Positions 7,503 through 11,732 of a stretch of DNA of 27,487 nucleotides are shown here, piece after piece. The notes beneath the pieces were generated by a model. That model ran no database searches. It saw nothing but the letters and a program-made list of their open reading frames with translations, and was not told the DNA's origin. The DNA is from a virus. The stretch is from IMG/VR virus record IMGVR_UViG_3300008267_000293, positions 1 through 27,487 of that record; one strand, written 5' to 3'. Numbering within the stretch: the first letter of the stretch is position 1; each line of letters begins with the position of its first letter. Position numbers and translations under genes: made by a program.

Positions 7503-9977
7503 TTATCTTGTTGCAATTCCATATTTTGCCATTGTTGCAATTGTTATTTTTTCAATATGACCATCCAAACTTGTAGTATCTCCAATTTTTATTACAACTG
7601 GAATGTTTTTTATTACCATTTCTGTTGGACCGCTTGTTTCTGTCGTTGATGTAGTTTTAGCAGTACCAGATATTGCTGCTCCAGCGAGCAACAAACCAAC
7701 TGCTGGGTTCAAAGCGGTAATTGTATTTAATGTTGATAATGCTGTGTTTAATTGATTAAGAACAACTAATAATTGAGTGTTTACACTTGCATTTAACGAG
7801 TCAACAAGTGATTTAACTGCGGTAGCCATTTTAGTAAATTTGGTATCGTCTATTTGAGATAATGAAGATAATATGCCAAGTGGGTCTGTTCTGACTCCTC
7901 CAGTTATGATTCCGCCAATACCTCCAATAATCCCGCTAACCGCCCCAGCAGCAGAAACACCGATACCAGCACCCGCAAATGCTATAAGTGCTCCTGTTAG
8001 TACATAAAGTCCCCCAGCAATACTTAACAAATTAGATGCAGGAAAAGTTCCAAGTATTACAAATAATTTTTCTAATGATGCAAAAGAGGAAACTAAATAT
8101 CCAAATCCTGCCGCTGCTATTCCAATCGCGGCTCCGATTGCTAAAATAACACCAGCAATTGGTAATAATAAAGGAGCCGCTGTTGCTGCTGGTAGCATAG
8201 ATAAAAGCGCCATTGTAAAAAGCCCAATTGACCCAGAAACTAATAATATCGCTGTGGCAGCAGCAGTTCCGTTATCACCAACATTTTGAAATGCTTCAAC
8301 AAGATAAGACAAACCGAAAGCAGCAGCAGCAATACCAACACCAATACCAATTGCGACAAGTGCTATTGCTGCACCTAATGCAAGCAATTGCGGCCAACTC
8401 AAAGCTGCTACTTGTCCAAGCAATCCTATGCCTTGTGCTGCTGGTGGAGCAGCAGCACCAGTTCCAGCTAGAGAAGGAATTAATTTTGATAATGCTCCAC
8501 TTAACGCACCTTTGGCTGCTGCAACTTTAGTGACAGCTAATGCATATGCAAAATAAGTAAGTGTAAGAAATGTTATAGTACCAATAAGCGAAAGTAAAGT
8601 TTTTACCCAACCTTCTGTACTTTTTGCAGCCGACCCAAAAAATTCTACAATCCAAGCACCAACTTTTATTATTCCATTAATAATTTCTAAAACAGGCTGC
8701 ATAATTGATAAAAGGTTTTTAAATGCATTTGCAAATTGTTCCATTGCTGGCATTGCGTCTAACAACATTTGATTCATTTTAGCTTGTGCATTTGCTTGAT
8801 CAATTGCTGCATCTTGTTGTTTTTGCAACATTATTCCTCTATCAAATTCATCTGCATTTAAAAACTTTAATGCTTCGTTTTTATCTTTTAGACCAAGTGT
8901 TGATTGAATAGTCATAAGAGTAAAGTTTTTTTCTGCTTCACTAACATTTTTTAAAGACTCCGCAGAAAGACCAGCTTGGTCAAACGCTCCAGAAAGCATT
9001 TTTACTCTTTCTGCTGGTTCTGCAAACATCATATCTGTAACACCAATATAATCTGCACCTAATAATGCATTTAATTTTCCTACGTGTTGTGCTGCTGAAT
9101 CGAATGTGTCAAACTTGGCCGCTACTGCAACAAGAGAATCAAATTCAATTCTTGTTCTTGACGCTTGACCAGCAAGTTGTTGCAATGCTTCTTTACCAAA
9201 TACTAAAGCAATGTCAGAGCCTTTTTGCATAATTGAAGATGCTTGTGATATAGAAAAACCCATATTAGTAATTTCTAATGTTGTTTCAGCAACAATATTA
9301 GAAGCTTGTGACATTTGTGCTGAAAAATCAGCATTAGCACCAGTTGTTATAGAAATACTATTATAAACAACATCTATTGATTTTGCAGTTTGTTCAGCAC
9401 TAATACCAAATTGTTGCATCAATGCTATGTTTGTCATAACACTTTCTTTGTTTTGTAATTGGTCTTGACTTAATTTGCTAAATGTTTTACTTGCTGTATC
9501 AAAATCACCTTGCATAAGATTTAAAGACGAATTAACTACAAGCATTGCATCTTTTGTAGAAACACCAAATTTACTAATATTATTTGAAGCATCTTGCATT
9601 GCTTCACGCATTTGTGTCCCCCAAGCAGCAGTTTGCCCAGAAGAAAGAATAAATTCTCCTCTCATTTTTTCAAATGATTTTTCTAAATCTTGACTTGCTT
9701 TTAAAATAGCACCAGCAGCAAGATTTAGAGTATTTGACAAACCTTCTTTAGAAAATAACTCACCAGTTGCTTCAACTAATGACCTAACATCATCAATTAA
9801 ATTATTTGTTTTTTTACCCAAAGCAGAAAATGCTTTAAGAAGTTCACTATTTGAGTTAGAAAGCTTACTAAATGCATCAGATGTTCTTTGCATTTCTTTA
9901 GATAATTTTACAAAATTCTCCATAAATTCCTGCATTTGTTCTGGAGTCATTGAACCAAAATCAATTTTGTCTGCCAT
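7503..9977 (-). CDS. Tail tape measure protein
   Basis: An 824-aa protein with typical tape-measure composition. Residues 1-110 are helical and coiled-coil-like (MTPEQMQEFMENFVKLSKEM). Residues 110-440 are alanine-, serine- and glutamine-rich helix. Residues about 460-485, 530-560, 573-632 and 636-695 are hydrophobic Gly/Ala-rich segments long enough to span a membrane. The final 50 residues form a small beta-like domain (EMVIKNIPVVIKIGD). Such proteins set tail length, are packed inside the tube and may form a pore in the inner membrane on ejection. At the usual 0.15 nm per residue this predicts a tail of roughly 120 nm. The ATG at 9977 has AAAGGAAG upstream. A strong hairpin terminator and a CTATTTAT element lie between it and the chaperone-like gene before it, so it may have its own transcript. 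Confidence 0.92.
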   Translation of the reverse strand: MADKIDFGSMTPEQMQEFMENFVKLSKEMQRTSDAFSKLSNSNSELLKAFSALGKKTNNLIDDVRSLVEATGELFSKEGLSNTLNLAAGAILKASQDLEKSFEKMRGEFILSSGQTAAWGTQMREAMQDASNNISKFGVSTKDAMLVVNSSLNLMQGDFDTASKTFSKLSQDQLQNKESVMTNIALMQQFGISAEQTAKSIDVVYNSISITTGANADFSAQMSQASNIVAETTLEITNMGFSISQASSIMQKGSDIALVFGKEALQQLAGQASRTRIEFDSLVAVAAKFDTFDSAAQHVGKLNALLGADYIGVTDMMFAEPAERVKMLSGAFDQAGLSAESLKNVSEAEKNFTLMTIQSTLGLKDKNEALKFLNADEFDRGIMLQKQQDAAIDQANAQAKMNQMLLDAMPAMEQFANAFKNLLSIMQPVLEIINGIIKVGAWIVEFFGSAAKSTEGWVKTLLSLIGTITFLTLTYFAYALAVTKVAAAKGALSGALSKLIPSLAGTGAAAPPAAQGIGLLGQVAALSWPQLLALGAAIALVAIGIGVGIAAAAFGLSYLVEAFQNVGDNGTAAATAILLVSGSIGLFTMALLSMLPAATAAPLLLPIAGVILAIGAAIGIAAAGFGYLVSSFASLEKLFVILGTFPASNLLSIAGGLYVLTGALIAFAGAGIGVSAAGAVSGIIGGIGGIITGGVRTDPLGILSSLSQIDDTKFTKMATAVKSLVDSLNASVNTQLLVVLNQLNTALSTLNTITALNPAVGLLLAGAAISGTAKTTSTTETSGPTEMVIKNIPVVIKIGDTTSLDGHIEKITIATMAKYGIATR

Positions 9978-10011: not shown

Positions 10012-10039
10012 AAAAAATGCAGGAACAAAGTCCTGCATT
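10012..10039 (-). terminator. Rho-independent terminator between chaperone-like gene and tape measure gene
   Basis: Perfect 9-bp stem AATGCAGGA / TCCTGCATT around a 6-base loop, followed on the minus strand by a T-rich tract (TTTTTTATTTG, the first two T falling in the stem). It starts 3 bases after the stop codon of the frameshift extension at 10042. Confidence 0.85.
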
Positions 10040-10041
10040 AT

Positions 10042-10260
10042 TTATCTTGTTGGTGGAGTCGGATAACTTGTTTTGCCACTTCCATTTTGTGCTTCTTCAA
10101 CTTGTTTGTTTTCTTTTTCTATTTGACTAGATAATCGTTTAACAAACCAATTTCTTAAACCAATAGGAAGATTATAAAACTCTGTAAAACTCCAACCATT
10201 ATAATATTTAACATAAAAGAAGTGTTCATACACTCCTTCCATATATTTATCACTTAGGCC
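10042..10260 (-). CDS. Frameshift extension of gp26-like gene (probable tail assembly chaperone C-terminal part)
   Basis: A 72-codon segment in the +1 (equivalently -2) frame relative to the gp26-like gene, from the Gly codon just after the T7 run to the TAA at 10042. It reads GLSDKYMEGVYEHFFYVKYY, then NGWSFTEFYNLPIGLRNWFV and KRLSSQIEKENKQ: an amphipathic helical protein with a convincing coding pattern. There is no ATG before its residue 7 and no Shine-Dalgarno sequence before that ATG. The only earlier start in frame is a TTG at 10323 without a good ribosome site. Ribosomes slipping by +1 on GAG TTT TTT TGG would make a 349-aa fusion (277 + 72). Directly upstream of a tape measure gene this copies the G/GT arrangement of tail assembly chaperones. 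An independent small protein, or a lost base in the T run, remains possible. Confidence 0.7.
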   Translation of the reverse strand, partial: GLSDKYMEGVYEHFFYVKYYNGWSFTEFYNLPIGLRNWFVKRLSSQIEKENKQVEEAQNGSGKTSYPTPPTR

Positions 10261-11092
10261 AAAAAAACTCCGCAGTAAGCGGAATTTCGACCTCCTGCGA
10301 ATGTGAACAAGAAGAACAAACAAAGTCAGTTTTCATATCAAGAGAAGGAGAAACTTTCTTATACATTGTTCGTATTAATTTTGCATCCATTGCTCTTAAA
10401 GTTATGATAAATCTGTCCAATGTTTGTTGGTCAGAAACACCATTTACAGAAACAATTGAAAGTCTTAATTGGTCTGTGGATAATGCTTCTGGAAGGTTTT
10501 TACGTTTTCTGTTTTCATTTAAATCATAAATTGTTCTTTCGTCTTTACCAGTTAACAATCTCATTTGTACTCTATAATGTGTCTTTGGAAGAGTTATAAC
10601 AAATGTTCCATCATTTAAATATTCTACTTCACCATCTTCGTGGTTTTTACCATTACTTATTACAGCAGTATCAAGCTTATATATGATTTCTGATTTTGTT
10701 CCACAAGAGGGACAATTTAAACTAAAATTATAATCTTCACCATATCCAGTTATTCTTGCTGCCACCATTAAGGCAGAGCGGTCACAACTATAAAGATTAT
10801 CAACATTTATTCTTTTATCAATAATTATACTTTGCAACATTTTATCTATTGCAATTCCTTTTTTGATAAGAGATTGAGAAGTCAATAAATCTTCTTCTTT
10901 TGCTGTCATATGTTTTATTTCTATTTGTTGTTGACCATGTAACAAATGTCCAACAGGATAAAATACACCATTAGATGGTAAATCCACAAAATCAGTAGGA
11001 ACAACAAAGTCTAATGTTGTGGAAGTATTAGGAATTGTTTGATCATGAGGAACATCTGGTGTTGTTTGAAATCTATCACCATTATTACGCAA
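10250..11092 (-). CDS. T4 gp26-like baseplate hub / tail assembly protein
   Basis: A 280-aa protein with the signature of the T4-like gp26 hub family: VDLPSNGVFYPVGHLLHG, then IEIKHMTAKEEDLLTSQSLI and KKGIAIDKMLQSIIIDK near residues 35-95. It carries two CxxC pairs, CPSC at 127-130 and CSSC at 259-262, which could bind zinc together. It ends FFWPK. The start is a TTG at 11092, supported by GAGGTG just upstream. No ATG lies between that site and the conserved region. The 3' end overlaps the next frame at a T7 run (10261-10267), so a longer fusion may be made. The place immediately before the tape measure gene is where tail assembly chaperones are found. In T4, gp26 and gp51 are needed to assemble the hub around gp29. 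Hub component and chaperone are not distinguishable from sequence alone. Confidence 0.8.
   Translation of the reverse strand: MRNNGDRFQTTPDVPHDQTIPNTSTTLDFVVPTDFVDLPSNGVFYPVGHLLHGQQQIEIKHMTAKEEDLLTSQSLIKKGIAIDKMLQSIIIDKRINVDNLYSCDRSALMVAARITGYGEDYNFSLNCPSCGTKSEIIYKLDTAVISNGKNHEDGEVEYLNDGTFVITLPKTHYRVQMRLLTGKDERTIYDLNENRKRKNLPEALSTDQLRLSIVSVNGVSDQQTLDRFIITLRAMDAKLIRTMYKKVSPSLDMKTDFVCSSCSHSQEVEIPLTAEFFWPK
10261..10267 (-). other. Candidate slippery site for programmed frameshift
   Basis: The sense strand has seven T in the context GAG TTT TTT TGG. A tRNA-Phe can re-pair perfectly after a +1 or -2 slip, entering the frame that stays open for 72 codons. The zero-frame stop (TGA at 10250-10252) follows three codons later. 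Just upstream is a hairpin, ATTCCGC / GCGGAGT with a TTACT loop (one G-T pair), and an AGGAGGT 22 bases before the run. Function is inferred. A sequencing error in the homopolymer must be excluded. Confidence 0.55.
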
Positions 11093-11126: not shown

Positions 11127-11732
11127 TTAAGTTGAGCCACTAAGTTTAAAGAACTTGGTAGTATCCGACGCGGCAACAGCAGTAACTGCTGAAGTTCCTC
11201 CTGTAGATTCTGCACCTAATTCGCATGTAGCCCAATCATATTTAAGCGATAATTTAAGAGTATTTAAATTATCACTATCATATTTGACAGAACCCCAATC
11301 TATTTTTGTTATAATTGGTTGATTAAGTGTCCATTTTTCAATTTGAACGCCTTGGTCATCAATGTGTGATACATAAATAGCACCCAATGCAACGACGGAT
11401 TTTCTTTTAGAAATTGTAACCAAACCACTTTCGGTGCTTGGTACTTCATAGCCACATGCTGCTAAAAGTGCAGCAAGAGTACCAGCAGCATCTAAATCAG
11501 AAGTTGGGTCAACCATTTCTAATGTAACTTCATTCCATTCAACAGAGCCGGGATAATTAAAACTATGATTCAAATATCTGTGTGCAACAGATTTAATTGT
11601 TGCAACTGGTTTAGTAAATGATTTGGCATACCAAACATAGCTGCTTTTATTTAAAGCACCAATTGAAACGACAAATCTAGATTCTCTTTTAGGGTCGTGA
11701 GCAGACCCATTAACACCTGTCCAAAATGCCAT
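11127..11732 (-). CDS. Tail tube protein (gp19-like)
   Basis: A 201-aa protein directly downstream of the sheath gene, as gp19 follows gp18 in T4. It reads MAFWTGVNGSAHDPKRESRF, VVSIGALNKSSYVWYAKSFT, KPVATIKSVAHRYLNHSFNY and PGSVEWNEVTLEMVDP. The pattern P-K/R-x-x-RF near the start, WxxKSFxKP, and a central hP-G-x-x-E/x-W-x-x-V/I followed by a long beta region matches the tube fold of contractile tails. Tube subunits stack as hexamers inside the sheath. An AGGGAG site precedes the ATG at 11732. A CTATTTAA element directly after the sheath stop may give it separate expression, in line with its high copy number. Confidence 0.88.
   Translation of the reverse strand: MAFWTGVNGSAHDPKRESRFVVSIGALNKSSYVWYAKSFTKPVATIKSVAHRYLNHSFNYPGSVEWNEVTLEMVDPTSDLDAAGTLAALLAACGYEVPSTESGLVTISKRKSVVALGAIYVSHIDDQGVQIEKWTLNQPIITKIDWGSVKYDSDNLNTLKLSLKYDWATCELGAESTGGTSAVTAVAASDTTKFFKLSGST

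Follow-up and report, generated by a model that had tools for sequence, protein, structure and literature searches.

Vladimirov, Gautam and Davidson (2022, Virology 566:9-15) reportedly found frameshifting to be conserved in several groups of T4-like phages, and T4 is said to use its genes 26 and 51. The study is cited in PMC12846349 and PMC10885494, and the sites of T4-like tail assembly chaperones (TACs) were described as poly-T signals for a -1 shift (PMC12846349). For long-tailed phages, Atkins et al. (2016) described the G-T frameshift as widely conserved except in T4, with -1, -2 and +1 shifts all occurring among the G-T genes (PMC5009743). A +1 shift at TTT-CGC was proposed for the haloviruses of the HF1 group (PMC7230728). 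The prfB gene uses CTTT and rarely TTTT in front of UGA, and the rare TTTTTGA sites are read by tRNA-Phe (PMC12421855).

Here we describe a gp26-like gene of a bacterial virus, for which a programmed +1 frameshift yielding a long tail assembly chaperone is, in our assessment, the highly probable reading. A frameshifted chaperone of the G/GT type in a gp26-type gene directly upstream of the tape measure gene had been proposed in an earlier note on this DNA, and the comparative evidence speaks for it. The central claim, a frameshifted TAC in a T4-like phage, is a confirmation of published work; the connection of T4 hub genes with the G/GT system predicted in the same note was right, and had already been published in 2022.

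Organization of the locus

The window, i.e., the whole stretch of DNA analyzed, is a virus fragment of 27.5 kb (27,487 nucleotides; IMG/VR record IMGVR_UViG_3300008267_000293). Its minus strand bears a T4-type structural cluster, comprising genes for a gp23-like major capsid protein, a sheath, a tube and a gp26-like protein as well as a large gene at the position of the tape measure gene (Table 1). This position matches that of the annotated tape measure genes in the phages immuto and LIS04, and the gene order tube, TAC, tape measure is that of G/GT-type systems. The 0 frame of the gp26-like gene closes with GAG TTT TTT TGG CCT AAG TGA on the minus strand. As had been read before, the +1 frame, which equals the -2 frame, is open through a run of seven T (10267-10261, minus strand) and reads on GGC CTA AGT GAT for 72 codons up to a stop at 10044-10042. 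The hairpin ATTCCGC/GCGGAGT, likewise noticed earlier in front of the T run, is present at 10285-10267.

A hairpin resembling a terminator, with a T run behind it (ATGCAGGAC TTTG TTCCTGCATTTTTT; 10012-10038, minus strand), lies past the extension and before the tape measure gene. Three relatives (L010, L012 and L013) have a terminator-like hairpin in the same place, in which the letters of the stem differ and the pairing is kept (GCAGGA/TCCTGC, GCAGAG/CTCTGC).

Table 1. Features at the putative frameshift locus, in positions of the window.
Feature	Position	Strand	Remarks
TAC-N, gp26-like gene, 280 aa	10250..11092	-	TTG start with GAGGTG upstream (SD at the start site); ends ...AEFFWPK-stop
TAC-C extension, +1 frame, 72 codons (GLSDKYMEGVYEHFFYVKYY...) and stop	10042..10260	-	proposed to be made as a fusion to TAC-N
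Putative shift site TTT_TTT_TGG	10259..10267	-	E-site TTT 10267-10265, P-site TTT 10264-10262, A-site TGG 10261-10259; UUU-to-UUU re-pairing at +1
TGA stop of the 0 frame, closing TAC-N	10250..10252	-	read from the sequence
Hairpin ATTCCGC-TTACT-GCGGAGT, abutting the E-site codon	10267..10285	-	possible +1 stimulator
SD-like AGGAGGT	10290..10296	-	25 nt upstream of the P-site codon
Tape measure gene, 824 aa, directly downstream	7503..9977 (start 9977)	-	called by position and size
Tail tube gene, directly upstream	11127..11732	-	PHROG 4542 tail tube, E=2.8e-14

Conservation of the extension in a shifted frame

By tblastn the gene was also found in cultured phages, and scans of IMG/VR yielded five close relatives (74-75% identity) and about 80 others at roughly 35-50%. 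A profile of the extension was then run against each of the three frames near the end of the gene in 89 loci. The extension was located in the +1 frame in 85 of them, in the -1 frame in four and in frame in none. In 89/89 loci its protein sequence is evidently kept, and always out of frame, which is far beyond chance. In the group formed by the window and the five relatives closest to it, the extension is under purifying selection (dN/dS 0.03-0.18). The two-frame layout looked for in an alignment of relatives was thus found to be conserved, while the T run, for which the same had been asked, was not and is replaced by YTT_TGG as the constant element.

Ten further +1 loci comprise MAG contigs and the Rhodothermus phage RM378, for which the extension profile itself gives no score. 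In four jumbo phages that are more distantly related (RAS14, XacN1, Paride and Atu_ph07), it is the -1 frame that is open, at T_TTT_TTT or T_TTT_TTC, and the extension profile is weak or scoreless in them. Among the -1 loci, three possess A_AAT_TTC and LR756511 has T_TTT_TTC. By their sequence, the -1 members carry canonical -1 heptamers (A_AAT_TTC or T_TTT_TTY) in place of the +1 site.

The MAG contigs with the gene (L100-L108) are mostly assigned to Flavobacteriales and are probably phage contigs in bacterial bins, which suggests Bacteroidota as hosts for a part of the clade. The use of SD sequences in initiation is rare in Bacteroidota.

The shift site and the direction of the shift

Over the relatives the site reads TTT_TTT_TGG_CCT in 59 cases, TTT_CTT_TGG_CCT in nine and TTC_TTT_TGG_CCT in six, to which a few variants are added. 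The Phe codon in the P site is TTT in 85/85 loci compared with 75.5% gene-wide (p=4e-11; this and the p-value given below take the loci as independent, though the phages are related), and a Leu codon in this place is CTT in 9/10. A redundancy filter based on shared 12-mers was passed by 90 of 95 loci. To judge from these alignments, the conserved element is YTT_TGG and not the run of seven T. The slippery CTTT or TTTT of prfB-type sites thereby stands at the P site, and the A-site codon is UGG in nearly all +1 members; as this is a sense codon, the cause of a pause is not obvious.

The T run in the window itself also permits a -2 shift or slippage of the polymerase. TTC_TTT_TGG is present in relatives at 75% identity and TTT_CTT_TGG in others, and since the two-frame layout is kept in both, neither of these processes nor an error in the homopolymer can be the general explanation. 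A -2 ribosomal frameshift in the style of phage Mu would reach the identical frame, with one extra Phe in the fusion, and TTT_TTT_T, which the window shares with the other TTT_TTT_TGG loci, re-pairs perfectly at -2. At TTC_TTT_TGG or TTT_CTT_TGG, however, it would put the P-site tRNA on TCT or TTC, so that re-pairing at -2 is not possible in all members of the family, as it would have to be for a site of the Mu type. The phages SP-15, GXN1 and BRock, moreover, have the site TTT_C, which fits +1 and argues against -2. A -2 shift is therefore improbable. From the pair of directions named in the earlier note, +1 is favored, as the variant sites allow no good re-pairing for -2.

The extension could alternatively be a separate gene with its own start, or be translated by termination and reinitiation. 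In some relatives the +1 frame does contain a start codon about 8 nt behind GGAGGT, and a small ORF is annotated separately in some GenBank records. The +1 frame was searched between the stop upstream and the tenth codon beyond the site; 31/95 loci contained no ATG, GTG or TTG in this stretch, and a start with an SD-like sequence was found in only 21. The window has no start in register with its GGAGGT, the conserved nucleotides sit at the shift site, and the -1 members use textbook -1 heptamers, all of which make a separate gene highly improbable.

By slippage of the RNA polymerase on the T run, a share of the mRNAs would obtain six T (or nine T) and become readable in one frame. A run of seven T in a genome of low GC content can be a slippage site, but relatives with four T at most in succession (TTCTTTTGG, TTTCTTTGG) keep the two frames, and this explanation is barely credible. 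As to the number of T giving one continuous frame, the expectation of six or eight holds for six (and also for nine), while with eight T the reading GAG TTT TTT TTG GCC TAA stops. That a sequencing or assembly error in the homopolymer hides a true gene in one continuous frame is a negligible possibility: runs of seven T are error prone, but the layout is found in about 100 separately assembled contigs with differing shift-site sequences and in isolate genomes from several laboratories, so that the relatives already refute this reading.

The comparison of sequences establishes the two-frame gene and its conservation, the shift site and, as the most likely direction, +1. In the programmed +1 frameshift proposed here, most ribosomes would halt at TGA and release TAC-N. 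A smaller share, whose P site holds peptidyl-tRNA-Phe paired to UUU while UGG occupies the A site, would move ahead by a single base, pair anew with UUU and resume at GGC. The product would be TAC-NC with 349 aa and the junction ...AEFFGLSDK.... On the model of lambda G/GT, the short product would be the one to coat the tape measure protein, and tube subunits would be drawn in through the C-terminal portion of the long one. Shifting in vivo, its rate, its stimulators (e.g., the hairpin adjoining the E-site codon) and the roles as chaperones are what we infer from this pattern.

RNA elements upstream of the shift site

The folding predicted for the 24 nt just 5' of the P site is stronger than that of synonymous sequences (n=90 loci, mean z -1.37, s.e. 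0.19), and control windows at a distance have a mean z of about -0.1. The hairpin of the window itself is strong. Its register is kept in 18/90 loci only and in a covariation test with fixed register a single pair (-15/-9) was clearly above the shuffles, so the argument for a hairpin is one of folding energy. In L009, L012 and L013 the CCG/CGG pairing is present in another register. On 70S ribosomes, a hairpin close to the E site can promote +1 shifting at CUUUGA (PMC6321510), and a stimulator role of the candidate hairpin is therefore plausible. A stimulatory structure downstream of the site was considered and rejected, as windows compared with a simple base shuffle yielded only weak signals everywhere.

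In a survey of positions -40 to -14 of the P site, most loci were found to have GGAGGT at 19 or 25 nt upstream of the P codon, and its codon phase varies. The Glu of the Glu-Val codons is GAG in 57/57 cases compared with 34% gene-wide (p=2e-27), and pairing with the anti-SD at this distant element exceeds the synonymous null with a z of about -13. In the eight -1 members examined such an element is weak or absent. Known spacing rules of SD sequences for frameshifting are 3 nt for +1 and 8-11 nt for -1. The GGAGGT 19-25 nt upstream is, as codon choice and pairing indicate, strongly selected and fits neither of these rules. In most loci it is out of register with any start of the extension. Conservation of GGAGGT for pairing with GGCCT was considered and rejected, as loci with TCT or CTT replacing CCT retain it. 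Anti-SD pairing 3 nt before the slippery codon also differs from the synonymous null (z about -8 to -10), but its energies are weak, with a mean of -2.7 kcal/mol.

These observations lead us to the tentative idea that one chaperone family may switch the direction of its shift by lineage, using +1 at a prfB-like YUU_UGG_C, helped by an E-site hairpin and a new, distant SD-like GGAGGT, and -1 at standard heptamers, and that selection may keep only the ratio of the products.

Affiliation of the gene products

TAC-N matches the family PF12322 with E=3.9e-16 and 59.8 bits (curated cut-off 24.5), its residues 49-278 lying on positions 8-219 of the 219 of the profile, and it also matches PHROG 150. 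T4 gp26 corresponds to PF12322 over its whole length (residues 1-206 of 208, E=9e-64, 215.6 bits), and T4 gp51 over residues 1-201 (177.5 bits), followed by a C-terminal piece. On the 282 positions of PHROG 150, TAC-N ends at 233 and gp26 at 235, and gp51 reaches 280. As gp26 represents the domain alone and gp51 the domain plus a C-terminal piece, the products of the two-frame gene are most likely a short and a long tail assembly chaperone, TAC-N and TAC-NC.

TAC-N and the extension were folded as separate parts. The AF2 model of TAC-N has a pLDDT of 91 and, in a library of viral models searched with Foldseek, resembled the hub protein of SP-15 (E=7e-18) as well as T4-type hub and hub-assembly proteins. 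The extension was modeled as three helices. Searches of the PDB by sequence, and by fold for the extension and for TAC-N, were unhelpful. "Baseplate hub" is an old annotation, and an assembly chaperone is the more likely identity of the protein. TAC-N contains the motifs CPSC and CSSC (at about 10700 and 10310), and these two CxxC pairs, which suggest a predicted zinc ribbon, are common to many relatives and absent from immuto and Mel-JY01.

Similarity of the extensions to PHROG 634, the family of T4 gp51, was weak and confined to the C-terminal part of the profile (11/54, best E 5e-4), and hhalign aligned the extension with gp51 residues 223-245 without significance (E=0.56). The extensions of 37/54 members are DUF6760-like (best E 1.8e-5). 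With 21.0 bits (E=3.4e-4), the extension of the window lies under the curated cut-off of 27 bits of DUF6760 (PF20546); it looks related and is no member.

In a search for DUF6760 in bacterial injection systems, 2/198 Bacteroidota genomes gave a match. In the injection-system-like cluster of one (L111), the DUF6760 piece and the gene before it overlap in different frames, and the piece has no standard start; in that of the other (L112), it is fused in frame to the preceding gene. Both pieces could possibly belong to long forms of chaperones in contractile injection systems.

Implications

The reading as a frameshifted gene explains a mis-annotation in the cultured phages Mel-JY01, immuto, SP-15, LIS04 and GXN1, for which the public annotation gives no frameshift and the extension is absent or appears as a separate, often truncated ORF. 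It also adds support from independent sequences to T4 gp26 and gp51 being the short and long tail assembly chaperones, and the "baseplate hub" labels of PF12322 would consequently be due for revision. The loci moreover form a large natural collection of +1 sites whose A site holds a sense codon, which can help to study the causes of forward slippage in bacteria, and the upstream SD-like element is open to a simple reporter test. In the papers compared, among them PMC5009743, PMC7230728 and PMC12846349, no earlier report was found of a +1 prfB-like site in this clade, of a switch in direction or of the upstream elements. The prfB-like +1 site, the +1/-1 switching within one family, the stronger upstream folding and the distant GGAGGT may therefore be new.

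Comparison with known systems

T4 gp26 and gp51 share the PF12322 domain with the proteins described here, and the short form likewise consists of the domain alone and the long form of the domain plus a C-terminal piece. In T4, however, they are encoded by two separate genes on opposite strands, in contrast to one gene with two frames. The T4-like TACs of PMC12846349 differ in their poly-T -1 signals from the +1 site of this clade. With lambda G/GT and other TACs of long-tailed phages (Xu, Hendrix and Duda, 2004; PMC5009743), the locus has in common an overlapping two-frame gene adjoining the tape measure gene and a low-level shift close to the end of the short form, which is here predicted from sequence. 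Those systems mostly shift by -1 on XXXYYYZ, and Mu by -2, and they are likened by layout, not by protein similarity.

The TAC of the haloarchaeal myovirus HSTV-2 and the HF1 group (PMC5009743, PMC7230728), annotated in HSTV-2 as a joined CDS, has a predicted +1 shift at UUU_CGC between the tube and tape measure genes, and UUU_C is also found in the SP-15, GXN1 and BRock members. Homology with the HSTV-2 chaperone is not supported, since the latter has no match to PF12322 and its N domain has no profile similarity.

The site of prfB (RF2), AGGGGG_UAU_CUU_UGA_C (PMC12421855, PMC8710568), shares the YUU in the P site and a following U, with purine-purine-C from the second base of the A site onward; its new frame is read as CTTT then GAC, and here as YTTT then GGC. 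Rare UUU_U sites occur in prfB as well, and the window has GGAG 3 nt before the P codon. Unlike in prfB, UGG (Trp) takes the place of the stop in the A site, so no feedback by a release factor is expected, and a weak SD-like complementarity at the 3-nt position is joined by a second, strong one 19-25 nt upstream. The putative site would work like that of prfB, but it is no prfB site.
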